From: Hirudinaria manillensis
Taxonomy: Eukaryota; Annelida; Clitellata; Hirudinida; Hirudinidae
Reading direction: 5' to 3'
Assembly (NCBI GenBank): GCA_034509925.1
Contig: CM067529.1
Coordinates: 10,565,501-10,629,500, forward strand
Length of the DNA stretch: 64,000 nt
The position numbers and the translations under genes were made by a program. Of the stretch, positions 692 through 50,700 are shown in pieces. The notes beneath the pieces are model-generated. The model saw only the letters and a list, made by a program, of their open reading frames with translations. It was not told where the DNA came from and ran no database searches. Numbering within the stretch: the first letter of the stretch is position 1; each line of letters begins with the position of its first letter.

Positions 692-2534
692 AACTGATTT
701 TGTGCGCTGATCTCAATCTTTGTCTGAGGCTTTTTTAAAGATGAATTTTTGTTAAAAACCTAAATGAGTGATTATGATGCATTAAAAAGAATATAATGTC
801 ATTGTTATCATTGATTTTCTCATTTACTGTTTATTCATTTAGTTTAGGAACCATGTTATATTTTTTAAGCTTAAATTTTAACATGGTGTAGAATATGGTG
901 GATATGTGAGGTGAATTGAAAAGAGTCTTATGCAAGATATGATAATTAGTCTTTAAAATTTGATATTTAAAATTTAATTCCAGAATTAGAGACAAAAAAT
1001 CTATCCCTGGTCCATCAATAGTCTACATTCTAGACTAGAATTTCTAGTATTCTAGATCCACCACTGAATAAAGGTCATTATTTTCAAAATTTTGATGTGT
1101 GGGTTAAGTAGATTTCAGTTGTGTTTGATGTGAAATCGTTTGCAAACAGAAAAACGTTGTGGGCAGTTTGTTTGCCAAATAGATTTGTGGCGTACCCACT
1201 TGATGGATGGAGGGGAAAATCGAGCTTCCTTGATCGAACAACTTAGTGGTGAATTGCGAATAGGGATGTTCATAAAGACTAAAAAATCATTAACATTCAT
1301 AGGCACGAAGACATCGCGCACATTTTATGCATAGATGTCACGTTTAACCTGTCAGTTGAGTAGATTTTTTTTTCTTTGCCAGACTGTTTTATTTCCGAGA
1401 GGACCCAAACAGACATGTTTATGTTATTGGCGATGGCCCCTCTGATGTTCTACGCTTGTAATATTGATTTTAACTTGAGATAATCGATGCCTAATTGTTA
1501 AAAAGATCTTCATTTGCCCGATAGACAATTTGATCGATTTGATTGTTCAAGGAAGATGTTGTGTGAATGGTCATATATTTGTTCACCGAAAATCCTAAAA
1601 AGAAACAGCTCTATATTATGGGCATTGATGTCACTTTCCAGTGATTATAGGATGGATCAATTGACTCACTCCTTTATTTTTCAAAATAATTTAATCATTT
1701 GCAGAAAATATACGTGTAAGGCAATTTACATGCAGAAAAATTAAGTGGCATCCTTTTTTTTTTATAGTTTTTATAGATACATACAGATATTAATGTATAA
1801 TTGATAATAGCAGTAATAGTAATAATAGCAATAATAACCTAATCTATAATTTCCAAAAGACAGAATTAAGTTGGAGCGTCATGTTTGTAAACCAGTCATG
1901 CCCCTATAGCTAATCGCACGGCATTATATAAATGACATGTTATTCTTATTATAAAACCTCTTCAGACATTCTGGAAGAGCCTGTGTTTCCCAGTCCTGGC
2001 TTTGTTTATTAGCATGTTTCTCAAACATCATATATCCTCTCGATTAAATATCATTTAAAAATTCTGCTGAATTTAAATATTTTCATTCATCTGTTATAAA
2101 ATCTTCAATGTTCAGGCAGAGTCCATGTCCAAAAATTAAGTAATCCTTGTGAAGTTCCATAAAACGTCAGCTTATAGCCTTTTAACACCTACAATGGAAC
2201 CTGTGAATTAGGGTAAAACCTGTCCTAAGGGCCATTTTTTTCCAGGAACCGATTTTACTTTAGTTTAACGTAGACAGCTCATAAAAGGGAAAAACTTGAA
2301 CATGCCCATAGGAACACAACTTTCGTGAAAAATTTAGCTTTCTCTACTGTCAGATTTTACTGTACGTCTTCCTCCATCTAGAACAAATGTTGGATGACAC
2401 GTGGCTTAACAACATTGGTAGGATTTGGTTAATCGATGGATAAACTCAATTCATCCACGTTCAACAACGACGTAAATAAATAAGCTTTCGGCACGTGCTG
2501 GGTTCATTATTATAGATTTGTTAAGCTTTGAAGG
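692..2534. other. Intergenic stretch, no gene recognised
   Basis: Only short chance ORFs are present on both strands, with no domain, no good exon chain and no RNA gene that I can see. A degraded transposon copy lies at 2190-2364 and is listed separately. Confidence 0.5.
2190..2364 (-). mobile_element. Degraded pogo/Tigger-like MITE, copy c
   Basis: Read on the minus strand this stretch begins TACAGTAAAATCTG and then follows, with gaps, the element at 38887-39060. It shares the blocks ACGTTAAACTAAAGTAAAATC and GGACAGGTTTTACCC, the last as GGACGGGTTTTATCC in the other copy. It carries no ORF. The family call rests on the TIR style (TA-CAGTAAAAC) and is tentative. Confidence 0.4.
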
Positions 2535-3336
2535 ATGCGGCCAATTTTTTGTCTCCTTTCCTTTCTTTGCCTTTGCAAAGAGGCAAATTTATTGGATGGT
2601 TATTTCATTTATTTTAAATACGATTATATATTGAAATTTATTTTATTTACGATTTAAATTATTGTTATATAAGTTATTGATAATTTTCAAAATGGTGTTT
2701 AGTAGTTTAGTCCAGAATAATTGAATAATCTCTATGATACCTATAACCGATAATAGAATAAACCTCCTAGAACGCATTCGCGCACGAATTAAAAACGATT
2801 CATATAATATTTGTTCTAAAATTTCCGTATAAGTTTCTAATACTTGTTTCTATCTTGTTTCAAATCTTAAGCAACGATGAATATCGATGTCGATTGGATA
2901 CACGTCCAAGAAACTCCAAACAAATTTGGACACCTGCCGGAATACATTAAAATCAGGCTTCCCGTCGATCCTGGTAGATATGTGACCATAGAACTCCATA
3001 GGAAAGATGACGATTACAAAAACATTCCAGTTATTTTGGGCGGAGATGATGGACACACATTATGGGAATCGCACGAGGATGAAGTCTGCTTTGTTTTATT
3101 TTTAAGTTTATAAGTTTATTAATTTCAACTGTTAAGTAAAATTTATTAAATTAGTTTCGCAGTTCGAATAGCTAGGGAAACAGACTTGGAACTCAATGTA
3201 AAACTGCTTGAAATAAATAGAATTAAATATTAAAAAATAAAACTCGAAGGCCAGCCTTAAGGAAGCCCTTGCTTATACCCTCACTCTCCTCAGTGGCCTT
3301 GAAGTCCACAGGACATACGCCACTCTTACGAACCGA

Positions 3337-3381
<45 letters not shown>

Positions 3382-4606
3382 CGTTCAACTTGTAAATTTG
3401 AGATTGTTAATGAACTTGTAAATGAATTTTTAATAACTTCGTAAATGTTTTTTTTTAAATAATTAATTCTTAAATAAATATTATTATGTATCTACATCTT
3501 AGTATCATTTTGTCGTTCCAGAGGTTCCACGTGTACAGCGATAACAAATACAAAGCGTCCTTCACCGTTGCCCTCAACAAGACATCCGAAGAATTGCCAA
3601 AAATAACCTACGTGAGTTAAATTTCTTAGTCGAATGTGTTTAAAACTATATCAGTTTTATTTTTTAAATCTGAATACTGTTTAGTATCTTTAGTAAATGT
3701 GTGTTTTACGATGTTCCTAGGAAAGTGACAAACAAATCACAACGATCTAAGGGTACCCTAATTATGCCCAAACTCTGCCCTACACATACCCTATATTGTC
3801 TCCTGACAAGTGACAAACAAATCACAACGATCTAAGGGTACTGTTATAACTTCAGAATATCGAGATCAACACGGTTTATTAGGATCAACGCAATACGACA
3901 CAACTCGACACAACACGACACAGTACGATACGAACACGAGCGGAATTAAAACGGAAAACAAGCGTGCCTCATCGCACGAGGTGCACAAAACCAAAGATAC
4001 GTATAATCCCACAACAGGTACCCTAATTATGCCCAAACTCTGCCCTACACATACCCTATATTGTCTCCTGAGTATTTAAATCCACTGAAAACTGATAAAA
4101 CTTGCTTAAGTTGGCTTTTGACTGTCATTTCTCTATCTACCCCTCACAGTGACCAATTATGTTCTTACTAATCAGTGATTCTGTTACCAGCAAAAGTTAC
4201 TAAAAGTAGAACATTGGAAGATATAAAACAGTTCTTTGTGATATAATTCAACTCATTCCTAAAATATTCGTAAAATATTACATGCTATATTTGTTTAAAA
4301 ATAGCTCAAAAACGTTTTATTTTAATGTATGCAAAATAGTTTGGCAGTTTCATGCACAAAGGCAGGCTGTACAGCTTAAGACCGGGCAAGAAGGAGCATG
4401 TACACCATGAAATTCTACAGCATTTTCATATCACAATCCACAATCATGCTCACGTTTTGGTTGAAGATAAACCAGTTGAACGCCATCATGATGGTAATTT
4501 CTTGGAAAATTATTTGAAACATGAAAGATATTATTGGTGACTTGTTTCGTTCCAACGATAATTTTACTTTCAGCAAAAGATTACTTCACGGCTGATGAGC
4601 TCTGAT
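2535..4606 (+). CDS. Secreted stand-alone reprolysin (M12B) prodomain protein with C-terminal ADEL
   Basis: Five exons (2535-2598, 2872-3083, 3522-3611, 4340-4493, 4575-4606) join in frame into 183 residues. Residues 1-17 form a signal peptide (MRPIFCLLSFLCLCKEA). The rest resembles the prodomain of M12B metalloproteinases: HLPEYIKI, then a beta-rich stretch with VTIELHRKDDD, then YFGSFMHKGRLYSLRP, the usual point where these prodomains read G-x-(V/F)-x-x-G-x-x-x-I-x-P. No catalytic domain follows. The last exon ends KDYFTADEL then TGA, and ADEL fits the ER-retrieval pattern [KRHQSA]-[DENQ]-E-L. AATAAA lies 64 bases downstream. The donors gttatt and gtctgc are weak. Prodomain-less M12B genes lie at 38-52 kb, so this protein could act on them in trans (inference). 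A truncated former protease gene is the alternative. Confidence 0.6.
3240..3379 (+). repeat. Possible SINE or LINE tail ending in (ATT)n
   Basis: A GC-richer 95-bp segment (cagccttaaggaagcccttg onwards) runs straight into an ATT microsatellite at 3336-3379. That layout is common at the 3' ends of SINEs and LINEs. A related piece, cagccttaaggaa, recurs at 11815. No tRNA-like A/B box was convincing. It sits in an intron of the prodomain gene. Confidence 0.3.
3723..4071 (+). repeat. 85-bp tandem duplication, second copy split by a solo LTR
   Basis: The first copy at 3723-3807 runs without a break from agtgacaaacaaatcacaac to ataccctatattgtctcctg. The second copy starts at 3808, breaks at 3841 and resumes at 4022. 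The two are identical or nearly so. The first copy therefore preserves the site as it was before the insertion. Confidence 0.85.
3842..4016. mobile_element. Solo LTR, 175 bp
   Basis: The element begins TGTTATAACTTC, ends CCCACAACA, and is flanked on both sides by the 5-bp duplication GGTAC (3837-3841 and 4017-4021). TG...CA ends with a 5-bp target duplication and no internal sequence are what recombination between the LTRs of a Copia- or BEL-type element leaves behind. The uninterrupted copy of the host sequence at 3723-3807 carries a single GGTAC at the same place. Superfamily not decided. Confidence 0.8.
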
Positions 4607-4669
4607 GGATAACATGCATAATTTTGCAAAAACTCTCCGAGCGCTTTTGATAAATCGTTGTTAAATGTT

Positions 4670-4675
4670 AATAAA
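4670..4675 (+). terminator. poly(A) signal of the prodomain gene
   Basis: AATAAA 64 bases after the TGA at 4604-4606. Confidence 0.55.
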
Positions 4676-5768
4676 TATTCTATTCATGGAGTATGTCGAC
4701 TTTATCAACTGAAATAAGACATAAATTCAAACGCATTCTTAGTAGAATAAATCGAATTAAACAATAAACTTTATCGGATCAGCTTATTTCACTGATATTA
4801 AATTTTGCGGAAAGAGATCCAAATAATCAGATGGTTTACGGGCAAAGTCGTAACAAGTGGCCGCCCGTCTCAGACACAAGTCTGAAGAACCGATCATCAC
4901 GTTCAGAAGGATCTAGTAAGTCTCAGAACCATTGACCATATGTGACCATAGAAAGTCATCATTAGTGGTGATTCACGGTATCGTACGGATTCATTGGCGC
5001 CAAGTAGTTTTACTACAGGAATTTTGTTTAGGAATAAATTTATAAAATTATTCGAGCAATTATTAACTTATGCAAATCGAAATTCTTGTGAAAAGCGCCA
5101 TCTCTCGCGTTAATCAGTCAAAGTGTCGAGATTCGTCAGGGATATGCGTTAATCATAACAACAATCAATTGAATGATTTAACGGTAACTTTCTAATTGTA
5201 AACAATTTGGTTGGAATCGTAATTAATATTATCTGCCATTGTATTCCCACGTGGTAAAGAAATTAAATTCGATTGGACTCACTGTCCACGCGTTCCTCAA
5301 ATGAATTCTGCTGAATAATTTAAACAAAATTAAAAATATATAAATATTTTTTTAAAAATTCCTCCTTTATTTAAAACGAAATAAATTAATTTTTATATAA
5401 ATAAAATCATTTTTTTAGAAGCAAATACAAAAATTATTTTAAATTTATTTGTAGAATTAATTAAAATTTTAAAGTTTTATAATCAAATTAACTAATTATC
5501 TTGCATTGCCTTGAAGCCTAAAGAATGAAAAAAAGAAACGCCGATGATATATTCATTTATGATAAATTACAAATGCGGGTCTCACATCATTCAATTATGT
5601 AATTTTACAAAAATATTTAATTTACATTCCCTAAGTGGCTGATGTGTGTTCAATGTATCATTTAGTGATATAGAATTTATTTTCCAAATATATGTTTGAT
5701 TCATGTATTGCCGTCTAAAACACGTAATTATGCAAAATTTCTTTCAAAATTTGACTTCAATGTTTGAA
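4676..5768. other. Intergenic stretch, no gene recognised
   Basis: AT-rich sequence without exon-like ORFs. A minus-strand AATAAA (TTTATT at 5676-5681) probably serves the gene at 5769-7085. Confidence 0.5.
5676..5681 (-). terminator. poly(A) signal of the 438-residue gene
   Basis: TTTATT on the + strand, AATAAA on the minus strand, about 90 bases past the stop codon. Confidence 0.45.
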
Positions 5769-7085
5769 TCACGCAGACATCCTGAATCGGTCAACGAAGA
5801 GTTTGTATTCCCAGTCGATAGCAGGACATATTTTTAGCAAGTTTACAAGCCATTTCTCTTTAATACATTTGTGATCAAATATATCTGTAATCAAAAACCT
5901 ATCATTTCTAATCAACATTGGCTTGGCTGAAATGCCGAGCCATTGGTACCAACTGCCGTTTAAAACAAACAGATATTGTAGTAGCTCCGCTGTCACGATA
6001 GCAATCTTATTGATGCCTTCAATGGTGCTCATTAAACAGTCGATATGTTCACCTGTACAACATTTGGATTTTACATCACACGCAAGTGAAAGAATATAAG
6101 ATAAGGTTTTCACAACCATTTCAACAAGCTTCCTGAAGTCATGAATGTGGCAGTCTTGTGTATCATCTTTTAAGTATAGAAGTGCGGTGAGAAATGACTT
6201 ATTGACGACTGACTGATCAACGGTGTCAGAAGGTTTGCACAAAAGCAAATGAAATTTCTGCAGTAAGCCACTAAGAAGGAATCGTTTAACTGGATTATTT
6301 CTGCATTGTTGTTCTTTTTCATCGAGCAATGTCAACGCACATTTCAGAGTCGTCCTAAGACATTGTCCATTGAAATCAATATCCCGCATGGCTTTAAAAA
6401 TAGGCGATATTTCCAAAATATCGTCGCAGTTTAAATAATAATAGACTTTTCTTAGATAATCAATATGAAGGCACTTGTTCTCGTCATTCAGCAAAAATAT
6501 CAATTTCATTTCGATAAAGTCATCGTGATTAAAATGAAACGTTGACCAGAATTTTGGCATTTTGTCCAACAATATCGCAGCTATTGCCATGGCAATGTGC
6601 GTTGAATTTTGACAAATTGGACCCAAGTGATGCGATACGAAAAGGTTAAGACTGTTGTAAAGCAACGTGTTTACGCTTCCTACACTGATGTAGTAAGCGA
6701 ATTTTAACCACAAGGAGCCATTCAATTCTGTATAACAATTTCTTACGAAACCCATACAAGTTATGGATATTAATTCTTCAATTTCTCTTTTGTTTTGTGA
6801 CGAAGTTTTAAAAATCATTTTGTGAACATTTATGCTGTCCATAAATTCTGGCACAGGTGGTATGATTGCATCGACAAGCGTTATATAGTTTTCAAACATT
6901 TCCTTATCAAAGTATGAATGGAGCAAATAAGCGAGAGCATATCCATAACCCATATCCAGCCACTCTTTCAACGACTTGTTACCAACGTCCTGCCTCAATG
7001 CTTCCACTGGGTCATCGGAATCTACGATTCTTTGGAGCGCGAGAACTTTAGCATCCATTATTTTCGTCAACTCTCGCATGGTCAT
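5769..7085 (-). CDS. Intronless hypothetical protein, 438 residues
   Basis: One uninterrupted frame runs from ATG (MTMRELTKIMDAKVL) to a stop after DRFRMSA. I do not recognise the family. The protein has no signal peptide, no clear membrane segment and no zinc or nucleotide-binding motif. Leucine-rich helical stretches are spaced along its length (for example GYGYALAYLLHSYF near residue 47 and LLQYLFVLNGSWYQWLG near residue 367), which would fit an alpha-solenoid of HEAT or armadillo type. About 13 cysteines are scattered without a repeat pattern. The lack of introns stands out beside neighbours with 5-21 exons and could mean a retrocopy or an intronless family. A minus-strand AATAAA lies about 90 bases after the stop. 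The ORF is far too long to be chance in sequence this AT-rich. Confidence 0.75.
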   Translation of the reverse strand: MTMRELTKIMDAKVLALQRIVDSDDPVEALRQDVGNKSLKEWLDMGYGYALAYLLHSYFDKEMFENYITLVDAIIPPVPEFMDSINVHKMIFKTSSQNKREIEELISITCMGFVRNCYTELNGSLWLKFAYYISVGSVNTLLYNSLNLFVSHHLGPICQNSTHIAMAIAAILLDKMPKFWSTFHFNHDDFIEMKLIFLLNDENKCLHIDYLRKVYYYLNCDDILEISPIFKAMRDIDFNGQCLRTTLKCALTLLDEKEQQCRNNPVKRFLLSGLLQKFHLLLCKPSDTVDQSVVNKSFLTALLYLKDDTQDCHIHDFRKLVEMVVKTLSYILSLACDVKSKCCTGEHIDCLMSTIEGINKIAIVTAELLQYLFVLNGSWYQWLGISAKPMLIRNDRFLITDIFDHKCIKEKWLVNLLKICPAIDWEYKLFVDRFRMSA

Positions 7086-8389
7086 GAGTGATTTTTAAAT
7101 TCAGAAATATTGGAGAATGTTTCTTATTTTCAACTGCACTAATCTGTTTACGTTTTGTAGTTATTTCTCGTGTCGCCTTTATACATGATTAGATCGAAAG
7201 ATACTGAATACTTCTCAAGGTCCGATTTTATTGATATTTAAAATTTATTATATTTTACAATCAATTACTCAATTCTCGGTACGATTTTTCTAAAATATTT
7301 TCTAACCTTTTCATATGAAGTGATAGATAAAATAATCTTATCATCTACGCAATACTCTTGAACAAAGTCTTTTGCCATATCTGTTCTTTAATTAAATTTA
7401 AATATAATATTATAACACAAAAAATGTATTCTTCTATATCTTTATGTATCGAGTTTATACTATATTGAGGAATTCTCAAACTTTACATGTTACCTGGGAT
7501 TTCAATTCTCTGACTAAAATATTTTTTGGCTTCTTTATATCAAAGCATAGCTTACTTATACCCACGAATGCAGTCCATCTTTTCCAAACCTTGAATTATT
7601 TTAAATACAAAGTTATGGACCAAGACTCTATTCTTGTATACTTTTAATGTATCGTAGACAAATGTGGCTTTTTTTCTCTCTCCTTTATGTAATGTTTAAA
7701 AATCATATAAGCCACGTTTATTGCGCGGAATTGTAAAGAATGTATAAACCGCTTTTTACTTTATGTTTCTAATTACTGCTTATGTTAAAGCAATTTCTAG
7801 TCCATAAGGCTGGCACGTTGAGTTTTTTTTTTAAATATTAATATTTGATTCGGTTTATTTCAGGATTTTTGCATTCTGCTTAGAATTCTGCTTTTGTTGT
7901 TATCTTTTCAAGTTGTTTACAAAAGTTCAAGATTTTTTGCTCGGGAATTTCATTTTCGTTGAATAAACTTGAAAACTAAAAAAGAAAAAATTACGAACTT
8001 TTCAGACGCAGCCCGAAACTTTAATCGAAAAGTCAAAAAGTGATTCCAAGATTTCACTCACCGATGTGAATTAAACAAAAGCATATATTATTAGAAAAGC
8101 TAGTGGTATGAAGGGTTGATTTGAAAGACATCCCTAAAAAAGTCGATATGCCGTCGCTCACAATATAGCAAACGATATGTGATCTTAGTTTATATGAATT
8201 ATTGTCCATTAAAAGTATTTAATCATTCTTAGCTTAAAGAAAGTTAAATGAAGGATCAAGGAGCAGAACGATTTACAGGGGTTCCAAAAAACCACCAGGT
8301 TTTTCAAAGCGACTCGGCAGTCCCTTCAGAGTTTTGAAATATAATTATTTTTTTTTTAATTTCTTCGCAAATTCGAGGAAGAAATAGAT
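7086..8389. other. Intergenic stretch, no gene recognised
   Basis: It holds the upstream region of the 438-residue gene and the downstream region of P450 copy 1. The part near 8280-8400 is a diverged copy of the 3' flank also seen beside copies 2-4 (ttcgcaaattcgag near an A/T run). Nothing else identified. Confidence 0.5.
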
Positions 8390-11300
8390 TTAATTTGATT
8401 TGGTAAAAAGCATGCCAACCATTCTTTCAGATGCTTTTAGATATATTCCATTGGAAGACTTCATCGTCATAGCCATTAATTTACGTGGTTTGTGATTTTC
8501 CTTAACATCGAAGTTGAATCTGAGCAAGGAAGCGGTTCATTATTAAGCCAATAAAAAAAAAAAATTAATCAAATCATGTCTTATATTAGGAAAATGATAA
8601 ATTTCATAATCGAAAAATTAAGATGAAAAGAACCTTTTCAGAGTCCTCGCTAAGACCACTTTCAGTTCATCCATCGCAAAGGCTTGTCCGATGCAGTTTC
8701 TTATTTGATTGAACAAATATCAAGTATTGTGGCAAATCATCGTAAATTGGAAAAATGAAATTATAATACATATAAGTCATTTTTTAATGTTGGGCGTCAT
8801 ATTTACAATCAACGAATTAATTCTGCCTAACTTTTAAAATAAATTATGAACTCAATTTAACTTATTGCCATCTTCATGAAGCGTTATTCAAAGCACGGTT
8901 TCTGGTGTGGATTATTTAGCATTTCAACTTGTAACTTTTGTTAGAATCTCAGAAATTAGTTCAAAGTTACCGAAAACCGGCAGAAAAGGGAATAAATGCA
9001 AATGGATCCATCGATTTACTTCTCTCCTGCGAAAATCTTTCTGGATCAAATTTTTTCAAAAAATTTAAAAATAAATTAATGTAATAAATATTTACAAAAA
9101 TATTGGCACGCATATAAATAAATAAAACTTATTTCTAAAGAATTTTTTCAAGAAAATTTCATCACAACCGATGGTTCGTCCCATATGTGAGGGTTGTGAT
9201 GAAGACTGTAAAGGACGATAGAAACTACTGTTCCAGCAGGAACAGATTTTCCATCAATGAATACGTCTTCTTCCAGCTCTCTTTCAAGGTATGGAATACC
9301 ATATAATCTCAATGATTCCTTTATGCACATGGTAAGATACGGTAGTTTTTGAATGTCATCCCTTCAAATTGATGAAAAAATTGGTTTTATGTCTAATTAG
9401 GATTATGAAAACATATGCGTCTAACTGTAAACATAATATAGTCTACAGTACAAGCAGGGGATTATAAATATATATTAATATATTTTAAAAATAAATTCAA
9501 CAGCTTTATTCAAGTGACTTAAATCACAATTACAACGTCGATTAACAATTAAGTGCCTCATTTAAATTGGTATAGTAACCATCTCATATAGTCATCGTTT
9601 TTATCTTTCATCAAATCTTCAATTTCCTCCTGGCAAATTCTTTGGTGATATGGATTTGATGCCAAACAATATAATGACCATGACATAGCAGAAGCGGTCG
9701 TCTCGTAGCCTAAATAAATAATCTTAACTAACCATTCTCTTCAGACGTAGTAATCATGAAAATTCATCATAAATTGATACTAACACCCTCTAAATGGACT
9801 CCTACTTAAAGTGCTCACCTCCCAAAATAAAAGTATTCACTTCGTCTCTAATTTCTTCGTCTGTTAATCCCACGCCATCTGTGTCTACAGACCTCACCAA
9901 AATGTCCAAGAAATCGTGATGATTTTCCACTTCATTAGGTTGTTCCTGCGATATTTAAATTCTTAAAAGGTCTAATTTTAAACAAGATAGTACATTAAAA
10001 CCCTAATTATTTGTTCCGACTTTTATTGAGTTGATGAATAACTTATCCAGGCCTTAACAAATCCGGCATATCTGTCCTGGTTCGGTGCGTTGGGTTTAGG
10101 AATACGGTGTGAGTGATTAGATTTGAAAACACTAGTCTCAACTAAAGGAAATATGTAGATGGAGCTTTATAAAAGTTCCCTCACATAATATTCGGATGTG
10201 TAAGGAACTCAAAATACTGTGTTTCTCTGCACAAACATAAACATTGCGAAAATAAATCGGTAAAAAAAAACGACCGACAATTAGCAAATCTATTTGGTCA
10301 TTTTCTTCAAATTTTAAATAAAGATTTACAATGAAATATCAATTATAGAAAATCTGAACATGTACAAAAACAATAGTTTATGCATTCAAAAAATCTGATT
10401 CTAAAATCTATAAAAAGGTTGATTGAGTTTTATAAAAATAAATAAAACATAGTTCATATATAATGAACTGACAATTAACTGTTTCCTTCTTTCTTTAATT
10501 AATTCCATGGCAAATTCGCCCACTTCTTCAGCATATTTCCAAAAATTCTTTCCATCTTTGGTCATCCAGTAAATAAAATCGAAATGTTTCCATGGCTCGC
10601 TATTCCATTGGAATTTGTTCCAAAATTTAAATTTAGACTAACAATTCATTTATATCGTTTAAAACAACTGAACCGGAACTCACTATTGTCGTTTCATAAC
10701 TAGTGTTGTCAATTCATCCACTGCCCGATCGTAAAAATGATCATCTCTGGAAAAAAGAGTAAGAGGTCAGTTTGATTATATCGAGCAAAAGTTCAAATTA
10801 ATATTTCACATCACCCTCTGGTCTGCAAGTCACTTTTGTAAGAAAAGGCACATTGTAAAATGATGTCCAACGAAAGCTTCGAAGTCAATTCGAATATATC
10901 GAAAGATTCATTAGATTTGGCATATGCAGATATGTTCTCCTTAATTAATGAAATTTGTTTTAAAGAAGATATTAAATAAAAAAGAATTATTCCGTAACAA
11001 TAGTTAGTAAATGACAATTAGATTTACTAGTTAGATAATTAGTTAGAAGCTTTCTTTTTACCAAGAATACATCTGTAGCTCGGTTTTGGGCGTTGATGTA
11101 GTTTTTGAGAGAATCGAAGTGAAAAGTCGGAGTCAATAACCTTCGATTTCTATGCCATTTTTCACCCGACGATAGCAACAAACCATCACCAGGCCACTTC
11201 AATCCATAGCGGTAGACACCGAAAAAAGTTGGTTTTTTACCTAAAATAACCGTTTATAATCAATTTTCACATTATAAAACAAATTTGAGAAATTCATGCA

Positions 11301-38304: not shown

Positions 38305-38784
38305 GAGCACAAATATTTACCAAATACAAATATTATAAATATTTTACTTCTGAAATTGTGTAGCATCATTTTACTTGTCAATAATTCAAAGGCGAGTATT
38401 GAGAATGAAGTCGTCATTGTTGTCTTTAAGTTTGTTGCTGTTGTACGTTTTGAAAGAAGCAACGCATACAAAGGGTAAAAACTGTTTAAAGCGATTTGTC
38501 TGCAAAAAACACAATTATTTGCAATTACAAAACATTTGATGATAAATGCGAAATTATTATGGAAGTCGATCAAAATGAATGAAGAAAAATAATTTTAAAA
38601 CAATTTATGCGATTACTTGTACTTAACATTATTTAAAACTGACTATTTATGTTTATAAGAGCACAAATATTTACCAAATACAAATATTATAAATATTTAC
38701 TTCTGAAATTGTGTAGCATCATTTTACTGGCGAGTATTGAGAATGAAATCGTCATTGCTGTCTTTAAGTTTGTTGCTGTTGTAT
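38305..38784 (+). repeat. Tandem duplication of promoter and first exon of the metalloproteinase gene
   Basis: The segment 38305-38444 (gagcacaaatatttaccaaa to ttgctgttgta, including the start codon at 38405) recurs at 38659-38784 with the start codon at 38743. The second copy lacks 17 bases (ttgtcaataattcaaag) just before the 5' leader and runs into a TA microsatellite before any splice donor. It therefore cannot supply a complete signal peptide exon. Confidence 0.8.
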
Positions 38785-41700
38785 ATATACATATATATGT
38801 ATTGTATATATTCATATACATTGTCTTAGGCCAATCTATTAATCACTTACATAAATTATAAACATTGCTGCTAAAGCTTTTGGAATTACAGTAAAACCTG
38901 CATATAGGGACAGCTAGATTTTGATCGAAAGAAGTATCCCTGTGGTAGGGTTGTTCCTATAATCAGGTGCCTATGTTAAACTTAAGTAAAATCTATTCCT
39001 AGAGAAAAAAGGACGGGTTTTATCCTATTCTCGGGTGCTCAATTCGATGATTTTGCTGTACTATCATTTATCACATCGTTATCTTTAATAGTATTTCCAA
39101 ATGCCATAAACACGAAGAACCGAATTAGAAAAGTCAATTTCGAAAAATATTACAAAACAGATTCATATTAGATTAATATTATCCACGCAAATCGGACCTA
39201 GGTCAATATTTATTTTGCAATCCATTGCAGCCGCGTCAGTAGCCGAAGAGGAGCAAAGAAAAATCAAAGCTCTAAAAATTAATAAGAAAAAACATACGAT
39301 CGAAATATTTGTGCTCGTGGACAATCTGTCGTACCAAAAGTAAAGTTGACATTCTTAATGTATTGGTACAGTATAATATAAATATTACAATGTAATTATA
39401 TTTAAATAATGCGTCTTTTTTTCAAATTTTGTCATTAAATAATCAATAATACATTCTATTAAATATTAATGTACTTCTTATAATTGCTTAATAATAGTAC
39501 TTTTAGATTTAACCTTTAGATGTAACCTTATATGCTTTGCTTATTATTCAATTCATTTATATACAAAAAAATAGATGGTTTAAATTGTGTGGACAAGATA
39601 AAGCGAAAACTAAAAGCACCATCGAATCATACTTTGGCCATGTAATTAAACAGGTATTGTTTTCTAACTAATTATTACTAGTAATTTTTTTAACTTCTAG
39701 GTAGGCTGGTGTCACCTGTAGGCTTAATACGTGCTATTAGTTATTTTTCCAATTAGGTTTAATTTCGAAAGTAATATTTTTCTGGAATTGCAGTAAAACC
39801 TACATGTAGGGACAGCTAGATATTGAACGAAAGAAATATCTCTATGGTAGGGCTGTTCCTGTAATGTGGTGCCCATGTAAACTTAAGTAAAATCTATCCA
39901 ACGAAGCAGATGTAATCGTTGACAGAAACGAGAGAGGAATTAATATTACCTCGAGTCAATATCTAAGCTTAAAAGACTGACATGCATTGACAATCCAGCG
40001 TGTGTTCAATGGATTTAATAATTTACTAATTAAGATATTATAATGTTATAATTCAATTCTTTGAAAATAATCACTATCCTTTAACCAGACAAAATATGGA
40101 ACATAATGTGAAATCGCAAAACAAAATCAAGTTAATTAATTTGAATTTAAATCTAATAATTAATTATTTGTTAACAACATTTCAAGTCGAAAAGAATTTA
40201 CGAACAAATTAATCTGAATAACATTTGGATAACTTTGGCTTTGATAGGATATCATATCGAAGATGTTAGTAAATATTGTTTATGTTTTGAATTATTTATC
40301 AGACTATACAATAATCACAATATATCACTACATCACAATAATATTTAAAACAAACCTATGGTAATGTTTTATTTGTCACGTCTTATCCACTAGAACGATA
40401 AATATTTGTAAAAGAGAGATAGTACAAAGATATATGTTTTTAAATTTAAATTTAAATAATTATTACTTATTATTAAATATTATAATACATGTTATGACTA
40501 ATTATTACAAACTTATCACCTGCAGACACCTAGACGCTTAAAATTCATGAGGAAAGCCGAAATAGGCAATGGTTATATAGATGATGTCAAAGCGGGAGAA
40601 TTATTCTACCAATGGATTGTCAAAGACAGGAATTCGAAAAGTCCGTTTTTACCGAAATTTGATATCGCAGTGCTATTCACGGGGTTGTTCAGTTTAAAAT
40701 CTGTTTTTGTGTTATTAAAACTGTGTTCTTAAAATTTACATTCAGAGACGATTTTACATAAGAAAATCCAATTTTCTTAAAAATTATATGTAACATTTAT
40801 TTATTATAAGAAATATTATAAATACATACAAGTTATAATATGAACACTGGAGACGGCTATGGCTATTTTGGAGCTGTGTGCACAGATTGGGGACTTTCCA
40901 TCGTGAGAGATACAAACTTTGTGTTCACAACCCACACCACTATCCACGAGATTGGCCACAAGTGAGATTTTATTTGATTAAGGATTTGAATTAAAAATGT
41001 AAGATAAATATAGATGTTAAATATCAAGAGAAAATTTATTATTTCATGTAAATAATAATTTTTTATAAACAGTAAATTAATAAATATTTCCACAGTCTTG
41101 GCATCCATCACGACGGACAAATCGGATGCTCTGACGATGCTTCGTATATCATGTCTGCAACAAAACTCGCACGAAACGATCACAATTACTTCAAGTTTTC
41201 CACCTGTTCACTCAGCGCCTTGCATAAGCATTTGTCTGAATTGGGGATGAAGTAAATATGGTTTCGTCATAAATCGTTAACTAGTTACATTTGTAATTTG
41301 TAAATTCCATAATTATTGACACACGCGACTGATGAATGTATCATTGGATAACTTTTGCATTGTAAATTAGATACAAATGAATTGATTACGTTTAAGAACA
41401 AAAAACCATTGTCTGCTTAACTCCGCTTCAAAAGAAAGCAAAGATAATATTAAGAAGCTCAAGAAGTACCCGGGAATGGAGTTCAGTCACGATGTTCAGT
41501 GCCAGGTTCTTTACGGACAGCATTCTTATTTATGCCCAGTTAGATTTTTATTTCTCAAATTTCTTTTAAAATTTATTTTTAATTGTTAGTGAATTTATTT
41601 AGTGCATTTAAAAGAATACCCTTGACTTGGAGTAATTAAACAAAAAATTATAACAAGAAACCTTTGTTTTGTATCCTTGAAACGATTGATAAGCTTGCAA

Positions 41701-44751: not shown

Positions 44752-47700
44752 ATGAAATCAATATGGCTTATACTTTTGTTATTACATATAATCACAGAAG
44801 TGATACCTATACTCGGTGGGATATAAATTATAAATTACTGTATAAAAATATTGGTAAAATTAAATAAATCGGGAATACATTATTTACAAGGACGTCGTAA
44901 GGACTTTAAAATAAATTAATTTACTAAAGAGGTTTAGTCAAATGAAATTTCTAGTAATCTTGCAAGTTACCTCGGAGAAGGGATTTTTAACATCGAAATA
45001 CCTAATGTCATGCCAATGTTTAATAGTACAAGAGTAACGAGTTTAATTTCATAGAATTATATTTATTACACAATAAAATCATTTACTTAAATTTATTTAT
45101 AAATCTTTAGTTCATTTATGTTAATAATGATTCATAAATGATGATTTATCATATCCATGTAATTTCAATAAGAAATCGTGATTTTCATAAGAATGGAGCA
45201 AGCCATTAATTCGGTTTCTTTTCTGGAATGTATTTGTTTGCAGGTCAAAGGTCAAAGGGATCCGTCGCAGAAGAAGAACAGAAAGCAATCAATGAACTAA
45301 AAATGAAGAAACAAACTCATACTATTGAGATATTTGTCTATGTTGACCACGTGTCATACAATAGGTAAGAACTTCAATGGCTGGATATCGATGGTTGTAC
45401 GTGGCTGTTATGGTGTCGTGACATTCATTTTGGATAATTCTGCACTTGAATTATTTGTTTGAAAATAAATAAATAAATAGATAAATTATTCGAATTAACT
45501 GAAATCTGCAAACTATTTGCAGAGTTTAAAAGTAGTTTCTTAGGCATTCCAGCAATAAATGATAAAAATTGTTACAAAGCAAAACAGGAATATTAATAAA
45601 CACTTTCTTTATCCAGTCATTAATGGTATCTAGTCAACAGATTGAGTTTTGAATGAGAAAATTATTACAGGATTATAAAATATAATTAGTTCTTAATTTA
45701 TTTAAATTATTATAATTAATTATTTACTAATTTTAAAACGATATTAAAATGTGCATCATTTATAACAGATGGTTTGATCTATCGTCAAAAGACCGCACGG
45801 AAACCATGAGAACTATTAAATTGCATTTTGCTTATGTCATAAATGAGGTAATTTTATTTTAAATTTCTGCTTAATCCAATAAAATTAAAAATGCATGACA
45901 CTGTAAGTTGTAGTTAGCAATTAATTGGTATTTTTCGAATCAATATTTTAGGTAAGAAGAATTTACGAACAAATCAGTTTGTCTCGAATTTGGTTAACAT
46001 GTGCCTTGGTCGGATATCACATTGAAGACGTGAGTGTTATTATCGTGTGTGTTACAAAAATCTATTATGTATTAATTAATTTATAAATATTTATTTTGCA
46101 GAACCCTAAACAAATCTTTATTAATAAGGCCAAGAAAGGACACAACGCATTAAATGCAACCTATGCTGCAGAATTATTTAAAAAATGGATTTTAAAAAAG
46201 CAACAGAGTTTACCAAGTTTTGATGTTGCCGTACTTTTCACGGGGTATTTAATTCCTATTAAATCGGTTGTTGCAAATTTTGGTCTGTGGATAATGATTG
46301 CACTAACTGTATGGACAGATAAAGCTAAGAACCGAAATCTTGGATAATTTTAATTTGCCAGAGGCTATTGTGGGATTTATTGAATTGGTTAATTCCGTCG
46401 ACTATTCTGTCCAATGTCAATATATTCAAATAATTTCATTTTTTAAATAAATTATGAAAATACAAAAAAAAAATTATTGAAAATGTCTGATATTTCTGAA
46501 CGAAAATATCAGATTTATATCATGTGTATACACATTTATATCGGCCATCCCTAGCTGGAGCTCAACTTTGGTCACGCTGAAATGTAGTTTATGAAAGTTG
46601 CAATAGATTTATTTTAAAATTTAAAGGTATTTTATGAGAAGCGCAATATTATCTCATATTTTTACATCTTCATTCAAAATTATCTCTTTTAAGTTTAATA
46701 AATTGTATTTCTAGGACTGCATTATACTGAAACATGCAATTACCGAAGTTATTTATTTAGATTTATTTCATAATTATTATTGGAAGGTACGATTTAACTA
46801 CTGGAAATGGCTATGGACTTTTTGGTTCAGCTTGTACATCGAAAGGAATTTCCATAATCAGGGATACCGAATTCACGTCTACGGTTTACGCAGTAGCTCG
46901 ACAAATTGCAAATAAGTAAAGTTTAAATTGACCTTTAACGTTTATTCATTTATTTATTTTATTTTATTTTTCTAAACAAATCGTATAAATCAAGAAGGTA
47001 TTAATCGAAATCGACATTTCTTTTGCAGTTTCGGTGTTGTGCGTGACAGTTCAACTGCCTGCAGCAATAATGGCAATTTTATCATGTCTTCAACAGTATC
47101 TGGAAAAAGCGCAAAAGATTTTTATAAATTCTCAAAATGCTCTCGGACTGCGATGAGAAAATATTTAGAAGAACTGAATAAGTAATGTGATATTCTGTTA
47201 ATTGTTAGTAAAAATAATAATTTTGGTTTAACGGGGGCTTACTATTATTATTATTATTATAATTATTATTATTATTATTATTATTGCACCGCTTTGACAT
47301 CTTGTTGGATCATTGTTTAGTTAAAACATTTGCGTGATTAAAGTAATATAAATAATAATAATTTTTTTAATTACATATATCATTATTTTATTTTAAAATA
47401 ATTGTAAGCGTGTTTTAAAACTAATTAATTCCTTTTTCTAACTAATTCTCCATTGTTTCAGACAAAATCAAAACTGTTTGCTCAACCCTCCTAAAAACAA
47501 CATCCTCGATACAATTCCTAAGACGAAAGAGTATCCTGGGATGGAATACAATCACGATGCACAATGTCTCATTGCCTATGGATCCTATTCGTACAAGTGC
47601 CCAGTAAGGAATTGCTAGTTGTACAAGTTTTTTTTAAAGTATATTATGAATGAAAGTAAACCAACCATTTCACCGATGTGTCTATTACATTATATTATTG

Positions 47701-50700
47701 GCCTTAGCATGTGTAATTTAAATATTACAATATTTAAATTAATTAAAAATCACTCTTATATTATCATGAGATGTGAAAACATCACGTCAGGTAGCACCTC
47801 ACAGTGTATTGTAAAGCAATTTATTTTTATTTTTTATTTTAGATTTTAACAGATAAGTTTAAATTGTTCTTTTGAAACGTTCTTTCCATTGTCTTTAATG
47901 TGAGAGGTCCAGCCTTTACAAATATATTCATGCAACACCTAATAAATGATATAACATCATTAAGTTAATCTTATTGAGTTAATAAATATCCAAATAAAAA
48001 CGTTTTTTATTATAAAAATAATTTTAATTTTTTAATTGTTTTGTAGGACCTGGGACTCTATGGTGACGACATGTGCAAGGAATATACCTGCTGGAACCAG
48101 GAAAAACGTGAATGTTCAAAAGTCGTCCCCGCAGATGGAACTCCGTGCGATGACAAGATGTGGTGCTTTAGAAATAAATGTGTTCATGATCAACGAGCGC
48201 CATCTCTCGACAGTAATTAAAAAGAAATTCTGTTTTCGGATAAAATTTAGATATCAAATACGTGTGGGTTTAGCGGCATTTTCATAAGTTAAGCGTTCGA
48301 TTTTTATTTCTTATATGAATAATTATTTAAATTAAATAAGCTTTCTTTCAATATAATGTAATTTATAAGTGCCAAATAATTTGTTCTGTAAATCCAGAAA
48401 ATTGCCGATTCGGAGATTACGGTGGAGTGATTGAAACAGATTCAGGTTTACTTACGTGCTCTGAACTGGCAGAACATCCCGATTATTGTTACGACCAATT
48501 GCACAGTTCCTACTGTTGCAAATCGTGTATCTCGGATGACAATGAAATCCCATCAGAAGAAGGTTAATAACCAGTTTTCTTGTTGTAAATGCCATATTGT
48601 TTTAGATTTTATTTTTAGAAATATCAATTAATTATAATTTAATAATAGTAAGTAAAATTCATAGAAATAAATAGAAAGTATTAGTATATATCATACGATT
48701 TAAATATTTAACTACCTGCGATTGGCTACAATAACATAAGTACAAATATTCAATAACACAGCTTTATAAAAATAATAATAACAATAATAAAATTCAATAA
48801 ATTAGTTCAGTAGTAGTTCAAATTTATCAACATTTAAATAAGTAGGAGTATCAAAAACACAATTTTATAGCTTATTTATAACCAAATTATGAATTAAATA
48901 AATTAAATGCTATCGTTTTAAAATTGTAAAGAGGAAGATCAGTCGGTAACAAACGTCAAAGGAGATAAACAAGTGTTCACTGCTGAAATTTTTGTATTCG
49001 TTGATCATGCCTCGTACGAAAAGTGAGCCGCCATTACGTCTAAGAATTTCAATAATAATAATAATAATAATAAAAAATAAACAATAATAAATGAAAAATG
49101 AAATTCTAACATTTGTAAACATCAAACTAAAAATTTCCAAAAGAGTGGAATATTTAATTAAGTAATAATGCAAATAAATTTGAATAATTGCTTTCTGTAT
49201 TAAGATGGTTTCAACTGTCTGGAAAAGACCGCACGGAAACACTACGAACCATTAAGATGTACTTTGCTCACGTGATAAACGAGGTATTTTTACAATTTAA
49301 ATCTTATTAAATGTTTTCGTAAATAATTGCAATATATTTATTTTTCAATATCGGGGCAATTAACATAAACATATGAACCGATAATCGAGAGAAATTACGT
49401 TAAGGCTAGGAAGATTTATGAAGGAGTGAATTTGCCTGGAGTTTGGACAACCTTATCGTTGATCGGATTTTACATTGAAGATGTCGGTTATATTCAATTT
49501 TAAGTAAATAAATAAAATTTTTAAAATGTTGAGATTCTTTGGATACTTATCATGAATTATATTATTGTGGGATTCAATAATCATGGATGGCCAAGTATTT
49601 ACCTGTATTTTTAACAGACACCTAGACACTTGAAATTCATCACCAAAGCCAAAATAGCCACAAATCAGATAAATGACACATATGCAGGAGAAATGTTTTA
49701 CGAATGGATTTTAAAAGATCGGCAATCAAAGAAGCGCATCGTACCGGACTTTGATTTAGCTGTGCTTTTCACAGGGTAGCTTTGGTTTAATTTAAGATTA
49801 GCCTTCTGCTTTCTGTAAGTCTTACTCTGTCAACGATTAAATGTGAATTTTAATTTTAATTTGTTAAAAAAATGGTTTAAAAGTTACAAGATGCTTACTG
49901 GAGATGGATACGGGTATTTCAAATCGGCTTGCACGCCTAAAGGAATTTCCATCGTAAGGGATACTAACTTCTTCTACACCACTCATACTACCGTCCATGA
50001 AATTGGTCACATGTTAGATTTCACTTTGAACGAAGTTAGTGAACAATTTGAATTAAATTATAACAAAATAATTTTTTTTTTAAGTCTTGGACTTCATCAC
50101 GACGGAGATCTTGGATGCAGCAATGATGCTTCTTACATCATGTCCGGCACAAAACTAGGAAAAAATAACAAAAATTTATTTAAATTCTCAAAATGCTCGT
50201 TGGAGTCTTTAAAAAGATTTTACCATGAATTGGGAAGGCATGTCTTTAATTCTTTATATGAAATTACACATTAATTTCTATTAATTCTATAAACTTTATT
50301 ATTTATCGTATTTCATCTTTTTTATACCAATTGAAATTCAAACAAAATTAATGTTGAATTAATTTATTTGCATTGAAGGAAAAAGAAAAATTGTCTATTA
50401 GTTTCATCTTCAAGCGAGAGTGACCAAATTACAAGGCAACTTAAACTATTTCCAGGATTGGAATACAATCACGATGAGCAATGTCTTGTTGCTTACGGAC
50501 CGCATTCTTTCATGTGCCCAGTATGATTTCATTGTTCCAAATTACTTGCTTACTTAACTTAATCACTTGATTTAAATCATTTAATTGCTTATTCAAAAAA
50601 CTTGTTCATTATTTCTGAAGCGTATTTTGTCAACAAATTTCAATTAGGATGTGTTGTTTAACTTGCAAACTGGAACATTTGCAGCCTAAGATAAGATTAG

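Follow-up and report, generated by a model that had tools for sequence, protein, structure and literature searches.

Parallels to the gene reported here are described from snakes. According to PMC8742412 the SVMP prodomain has been recruited alone on at least two independent occasions, in Echis by way of stop codons in otherwise unremarkable sequences and in the psammophiine snakes, where it diversified widely. On the account of that paper, a stand-alone M12B prodomain is already a known kind. Isolated prodomains can also act on proteases in trans. The free prodomain of TACE inhibits TACE, as reported in PMC5159831, and stand-alone propeptide-like inhibitors such as SUB1-ProM are described for the subtilases (PMC6993865). 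Among the titles and abstract openings searched we found none on M12B enzymes without a prodomain that are acted on by a natural prodomain; prior art may exist.

Here we analyze a predicted M12B prodomain gene of Hirudinaria manillensis. It lies in a window, that is, the whole stretch of 64,000 nucleotides under analysis, which covers C4:10565501-10629500 of a genome assembled into 23 contigs (148 Mb). Like the Echis and psammophiine products described in PMC8742412 it would give an M12B prodomain made without other domains. As a kind the gene is not new, since prodomain-only M12B products have been published for snake venoms in that same paper. There are also differences, since PMC8742412 places the snake products in the venom gland and describes the psammophiine ones as diversified with a shifted second half, whereas here we have one predicted gene. 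With the free TACE prodomain of PMC5159831, which is able to act in trans on the catalytic domain, our candidate shares that it is an isolated M12B-type prodomain; the TACE prodomain, however, was engineered from a normal zymogen and works by cysteine coordination and surface contact. SUB1-ProM resembles it as a propeptide-like protein with its own gene near protease genes, but belongs to another protease clan and its inhibition is experimentally shown (PMC6993865).

Gene model and identity of the prodomain

We re-derived the gene from the sequence. Five exons at 2535-4605, separated by introns which are all GT-AG, form a frame that is open for 183 codons to a TGA (Table 1). Thus the five in-frame exons, the 183 residues, the signal-like peptide and the ADEL end of the preliminary description were all recovered from the DNA, together with its poly(A) signal 64 bases past the stop. 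The stop and the ADEL end are as claimed there; only the end coordinate had to be moved from 4606 to 4605. The end and phase of exon 1 are, by eye, the same as in other M12B signal exons of the genome, and the weak donors of exons 1 and 2 are located where other M12B genes of the genome have theirs (exon 1 again by eye). The introns are rich in repeats, and the solo-LTR-like insert in intron 3 has copies which are 98.9% and 99.4% alike at L015 and L016, loci that come up again below. The surviving exons of the window copy carry no disabling change, neither a stop nor a frameshift nor a lost splice site; its 3′ part is missing.

Table 1 Positions in the window of the prodomain gene, its exons and the neighbouring M12B genes
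Feature	Position	Strand	Description
Exon 1	2535..2598	+	Signal-like peptide MRPIFCLLSFLCLCKEANLLD; weak donor GTTATT, phase 1
Exon 2	2872..3083	+	Prodomain, first part; weak donor GTCTGC; tblastn to C2 M12B genes, best E=6e-7
Exon 3	3522..3611	+	Prodomain, middle, RFHVYSDNKYKASFTV...; donor GTGAGT
Solo-LTR-like insert	3842..4016	.	TGTTA...AACA in intron 3; target-site duplication GGTAC; no exon touched; LTR label by eye
Exon 4	4340..4493	+	Prodomain, last part; phase-1 donor GTAATT; tblastn to L019 and both L018 genes
Exon 5	4574..4605	+	AKDYFTADEL and stop; linker-exon position and phase as in full-length genes
AATAAA	4670..4675	+	Possible poly(A) signal; present in the four copies too
Gene 1	38405..41246	+	Signal exon 38405-38474 in phase to catalytic exon 39231-39339; no prodomain between
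Gene 2	44752..47176	+	Signal exon 44752-44815 and catalytic exon 45244-45364, in phase; no prodomain
Gene 3	48932..50235	+	Catalytic exons with HEIGH

The similarity to M12B prodomains was established from within the genome. When the exons were queried one by one with tblastn, exons 2, 3, and 4 found counterparts, in unchanged order, among the exons of the M12B genes at C2:13.41-13.44 Mb, and exon ends and phases correspond between the window prodomain and these genes. In an alignment the identity to six prodomains of full-length genes is 25-28%. A profile of four C2 prodomains, all taken from full-length M12B genes of the same genome and with the window left out, gives the window protein 72.7 bits (E=2.6e-21), the best of 2000 shuffles reaching 9.7. 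Further window-free profiles give 55.9 bits when built from two C4 sequences and 93.6 bits when built from all six, with 2000 shuffles at no more than 11.2 bits. Judged by these profiles, the window protein is a true M12B-type prodomain, and the stand-alone prodomain with a signal-like peptide proposed earlier is borne out.

The preliminary description had named a prodomain HMM search as a check, and its outcome is divided: PF01562 is silent while the genome-derived profiles match far above the shuffles. In a Pfam scan of the single exons and of the spliced protein no M12B prodomain was matched. We do not take this as a refutation because most prodomains of full-length genes miss PF01562 too; it was reached by one of four, at E=0.0077 and below the cut-off. 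A genome scan with PF01562 also gave no match, a result which does not imply absence. Beyond this family, a PDB scan with the prodomain alignment returned no metalloprotease (best was a fibronectin type III protein, E=0.077), and in a protein homologue search none of the eight candidates scored came to E<=10. In a DNA scan with window positions 2400-3330 exon 1 or 2 was covered, among the 40 candidates scored of 168, only by the window itself. The window protein has cysteines only at residues 6, 12, and 14, within the signal-like peptide, and a cysteine switch is therefore ruled out.

The missing catalytic part and the copies of exon 4

With the homology queries used here we matched no M12B catalytic exon between 4605 and gene 1 at 39.2 kb, and an adjoining catalytic domain with HExxHxxGxxH was not found beside the window prodomain. 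The other prodomain sets found in the genome are different. Each of the seven, of which four lie on C2 and three at C4:13.15-13.17 Mb, is followed on its own strand by catalytic exons, and for one further set at C4:10.555 Mb the catalytic exons follow after about 7 kb; two weak candidate prodomains on C3 (E=0.06 and 0.35) stand outside the count of seven. Thus the window gene is like the full-length genes at C2:13.41-13.44 Mb and C4:13.15-13.17 Mb in the order and phases of its prodomain exons but unlike them in that these run on into catalytic exons. Downstream of exon 4 the C2 genes have linker exons, basic cleavage-like sites such as SREKR, and catalytic exons. At L019 an exon in the stretch beyond exon 4 begins with ANDFIKTPNIEDGK, in the same phase as AKDYFTADEL of the window (a short match, seen by eye). 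We therefore read exon 5 as the putative start of a linker exon, for which position and phase are a stronger argument than the short sequence match. As far as exon structure and homology can tell, the window gene is derived from a full-length M12B gene and its catalytic part has been lost.

Two parts of the window, 4017-5124 and 5790-6257, are found again, collinear, in four copies on the opposite strand at C4:10.694-10.724 Mb, where further pieces of 5824-7610 recur out of line. A DNA scan with 4340-4720 found five places, window included. Pairwise differences among the four copies amount to 1-8 in about 1115 sites. They have kept exon 4 alone, its donor GT is changed to AT, and most of exon 5 is missing through a gap of 27 bp. 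The DNA immediately 3′ of exon 4 is common to the window and the four copies; the catalytic part was therefore probably gone, or far off, before the split.

Comparison with one of the copies (L016) gives 75 differences at 819 non-coding sites. In exon 4, 10 of 154 sites differ, eight by replacement and two silently, and this 8:2 ratio does not point to constraint on the pair, which is what a pair with one dead side should show. Of the eight replacements, three hit columns which are invariant in the prodomain alignment and each time it is the copy that departs. In a rough simulation of neutral decay, the chance that frame and splice sites stay intact was 0.017-0.047 when half of the divergence was assigned to the window branch, and 0.13-0.22 when only a quarter was. 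The simulation leans towards constraint but proves nothing.

Other features lie on the minus strand downstream of the gene. A match to snoU13 (RF01210) at 4825-4912 scores 47.8 bits against a cut-off of 46, and this stretch is also found in the four duplicated segments. An open reading frame of 441 codons at 5769-7094 hits no Pfam family above the cut-off; related pieces adjoin the four exon 4 copies (L014-L017). From 8349 to 36177 follows an array of cytochrome P450-like genes, presumably CYP4-like, with three stretches 78-84% alike to 8349-9985.

M12B genes without a prodomain

Downstream of the P450-like array the window holds M12B genes in which a signal exon leads directly to a catalytic exon (Table 1). 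Gene 1 has HEIGHK and HHD motifs at 40846-41246 and more exons to about 43 kb. Two like genes at C4:10.477 and 10.494 Mb, about 91 and 73 kb upstream of the prodomain gene, also have the signal joined to a catalytic exon (by eye), with a distance of less than 300 bases between the two. In all, C4:10.47-10.62 Mb contains four M12B genes of this build. The preliminary description had placed prodomain-less M12B enzymes in the region, and genes 1 and 2 together with the two upstream genes agree with it. This is the more curious half of its idea and, as read from the exons, it stands.

Gene 2 has VYAVARQIANK in the zinc-site stretch (46800-47176) where the neighbours have HEIGHK, and it looks like a pseudoprotease beside active-looking relatives. 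For gene 3 no signal exon of its own was seen at 48560-48930. The last exon of gene 2 is compatible in phase with the first one of gene 3 (48340-49022). Genes 2 and 3 may form a single gene that holds an inactive and an active-looking M12B unit.

The ADEL end and possible roles of the protein

The C-terminal ADEL (4591-4602) fits only the wide motif form [KRHQSA][DENQ]EL quoted in the preliminary description. This motif stands before three of 6397 stops in the window, ADEL included, which is about 1 in 2100 and as composition predicts. According to PMC8248988 ADEL is unused in most organisms and is mostly secreted from human cells, with D50 and E117 of the human KDEL receptor excluding it; some yeasts use ADEL or DDEL and have receptors that differ at such positions. 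We searched the genome for the KDEL-receptor family and found two loci, at C12:2.199 Mb and C6:9.070 Mb. On C12 the first exon piece gives a gapless alignment to residues 31-118 of KDELR2 (solved structures) and keeps D50 and E117; W120 on C12 as well as D50, E117, and W120 on C6 were identified by eye from the same motifs. Both loci thus retain the residues which in the human receptor PMC8248988 ties to the exclusion of ADEL, and retention in the endoplasmic reticulum through ADEL is therefore unlikely in this organism. Nor is the motif conserved in near relatives, as the 27 bp of exon 5 are gone in four of four copies.

The preliminary description had seen in the protein an ER-resident prodomain, held by ADEL as a chaperone for the prodomain-less enzymes, and had named conserved ADEL or KDEL ends in orthologues as a check. 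The fit of the tail to the quoted motif and the yeasts with ADEL or DDEL signals (PMC8248988) speak for it; the kept receptor residues, the human cells which mostly secrete ADEL reporters according to the same source, and the near absence of exon 5 from the copies make it the most improbable of the readings considered, and ER residence is not supported. A pair without ER retention would need no ADEL. The prodomain could act in trans, assisting or silencing the prodomain-less M12B enzymes while both travel through the secretory pathway of one cell, and the prodomain gene lies about 34 kb from their cluster. Such a natural split M12B system draws on the presence of these genes in the same region and on the assistance and inhibition by ADAM prodomains described in PMC5159831, but one candidate enzyme, gene 2, has no zinc site and full-length M12B genes are abundant as alternative partners. 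We consider it unlikely. It is also conceivable, though very unlikely, that the locus is the distant 5′ part of gene 1, with exon 4 joined to the catalytic exon of that gene by removal of an intron of about 35 kb which spans the antisense P450 cluster, and yields an ordinary full-length enzyme. The phase-1 donor of exon 4 fits the acceptor at 39231 on the same strand; gene 1, however, has its own in-phase signal exon, and the M12B introns read here are far shorter.

Two readings carry more weight. We suggest, tentatively, that the gene is a 3′-truncated paralogue of a full-length M12B metalloprotease gene, reduced to its signal exon, three prodomain exons and the first part of the linker exon. 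A transcript of the modelled form would encode a prodomain-only protein with a signal-like peptide that would be secreted and not returned to the ER. Its most likely activity would be binding in trans to M12B catalytic domains, in the manner of free ADAM prodomains, which would make it an inhibitor or decoy that works without a cysteine switch. We propose this secreted prodomain because of the profile match, the shared exon order, ends and phases, and the catalytic exons that are missing only here among the sets. It is favoured by a frame and splice sites that are intact despite 75 differences in 819 non-coding sites, by the changes in invariant columns that all lie on the copy side, and by the inhibition of TACE by its free prodomain (PMC5159831). 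It is weakened by the weak donors of exons 1 and 2, by the 8:2 ratio in exon 4 and by a neutral chance of up to 0.22. The lack of a homologue in the protein search and of a cysteine outside the signal-like peptide weaken it too, as does the antisense open reading frame at 5769-7094 which shows a disturbed 3′ side. An intact truncated paralogue with a secreted product that may bind M12B catalytic domains in trans is thus a serious possibility that stops short of being probable. Equally likely is that the same truncated paralogue is a functionless relic, its open frame a recent survivor and ADEL the place where the linker exon happens to meet its first stop. The lost 3′ part, the weak donors and the four decayed copies of the 3′ half would suit a relic, as would the replacement-rich exon 4 and the repeat-rich introns with their solo-LTR-like insert. 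Against a relic stands the window copy itself, which is free of stops, frameshifts and lost splice sites, with a neutral survival of 0.017-0.22 depending on the assumption.

If the gene is silent, it is unremarkable debris from a protease family that duplicates fast. If it is expressed, it would add to the snake cases an M12B prodomain made as a separate protein, here in a region where other M12B genes have lost theirs, and the need of such enzymes for a prodomain in cis would become directly testable.
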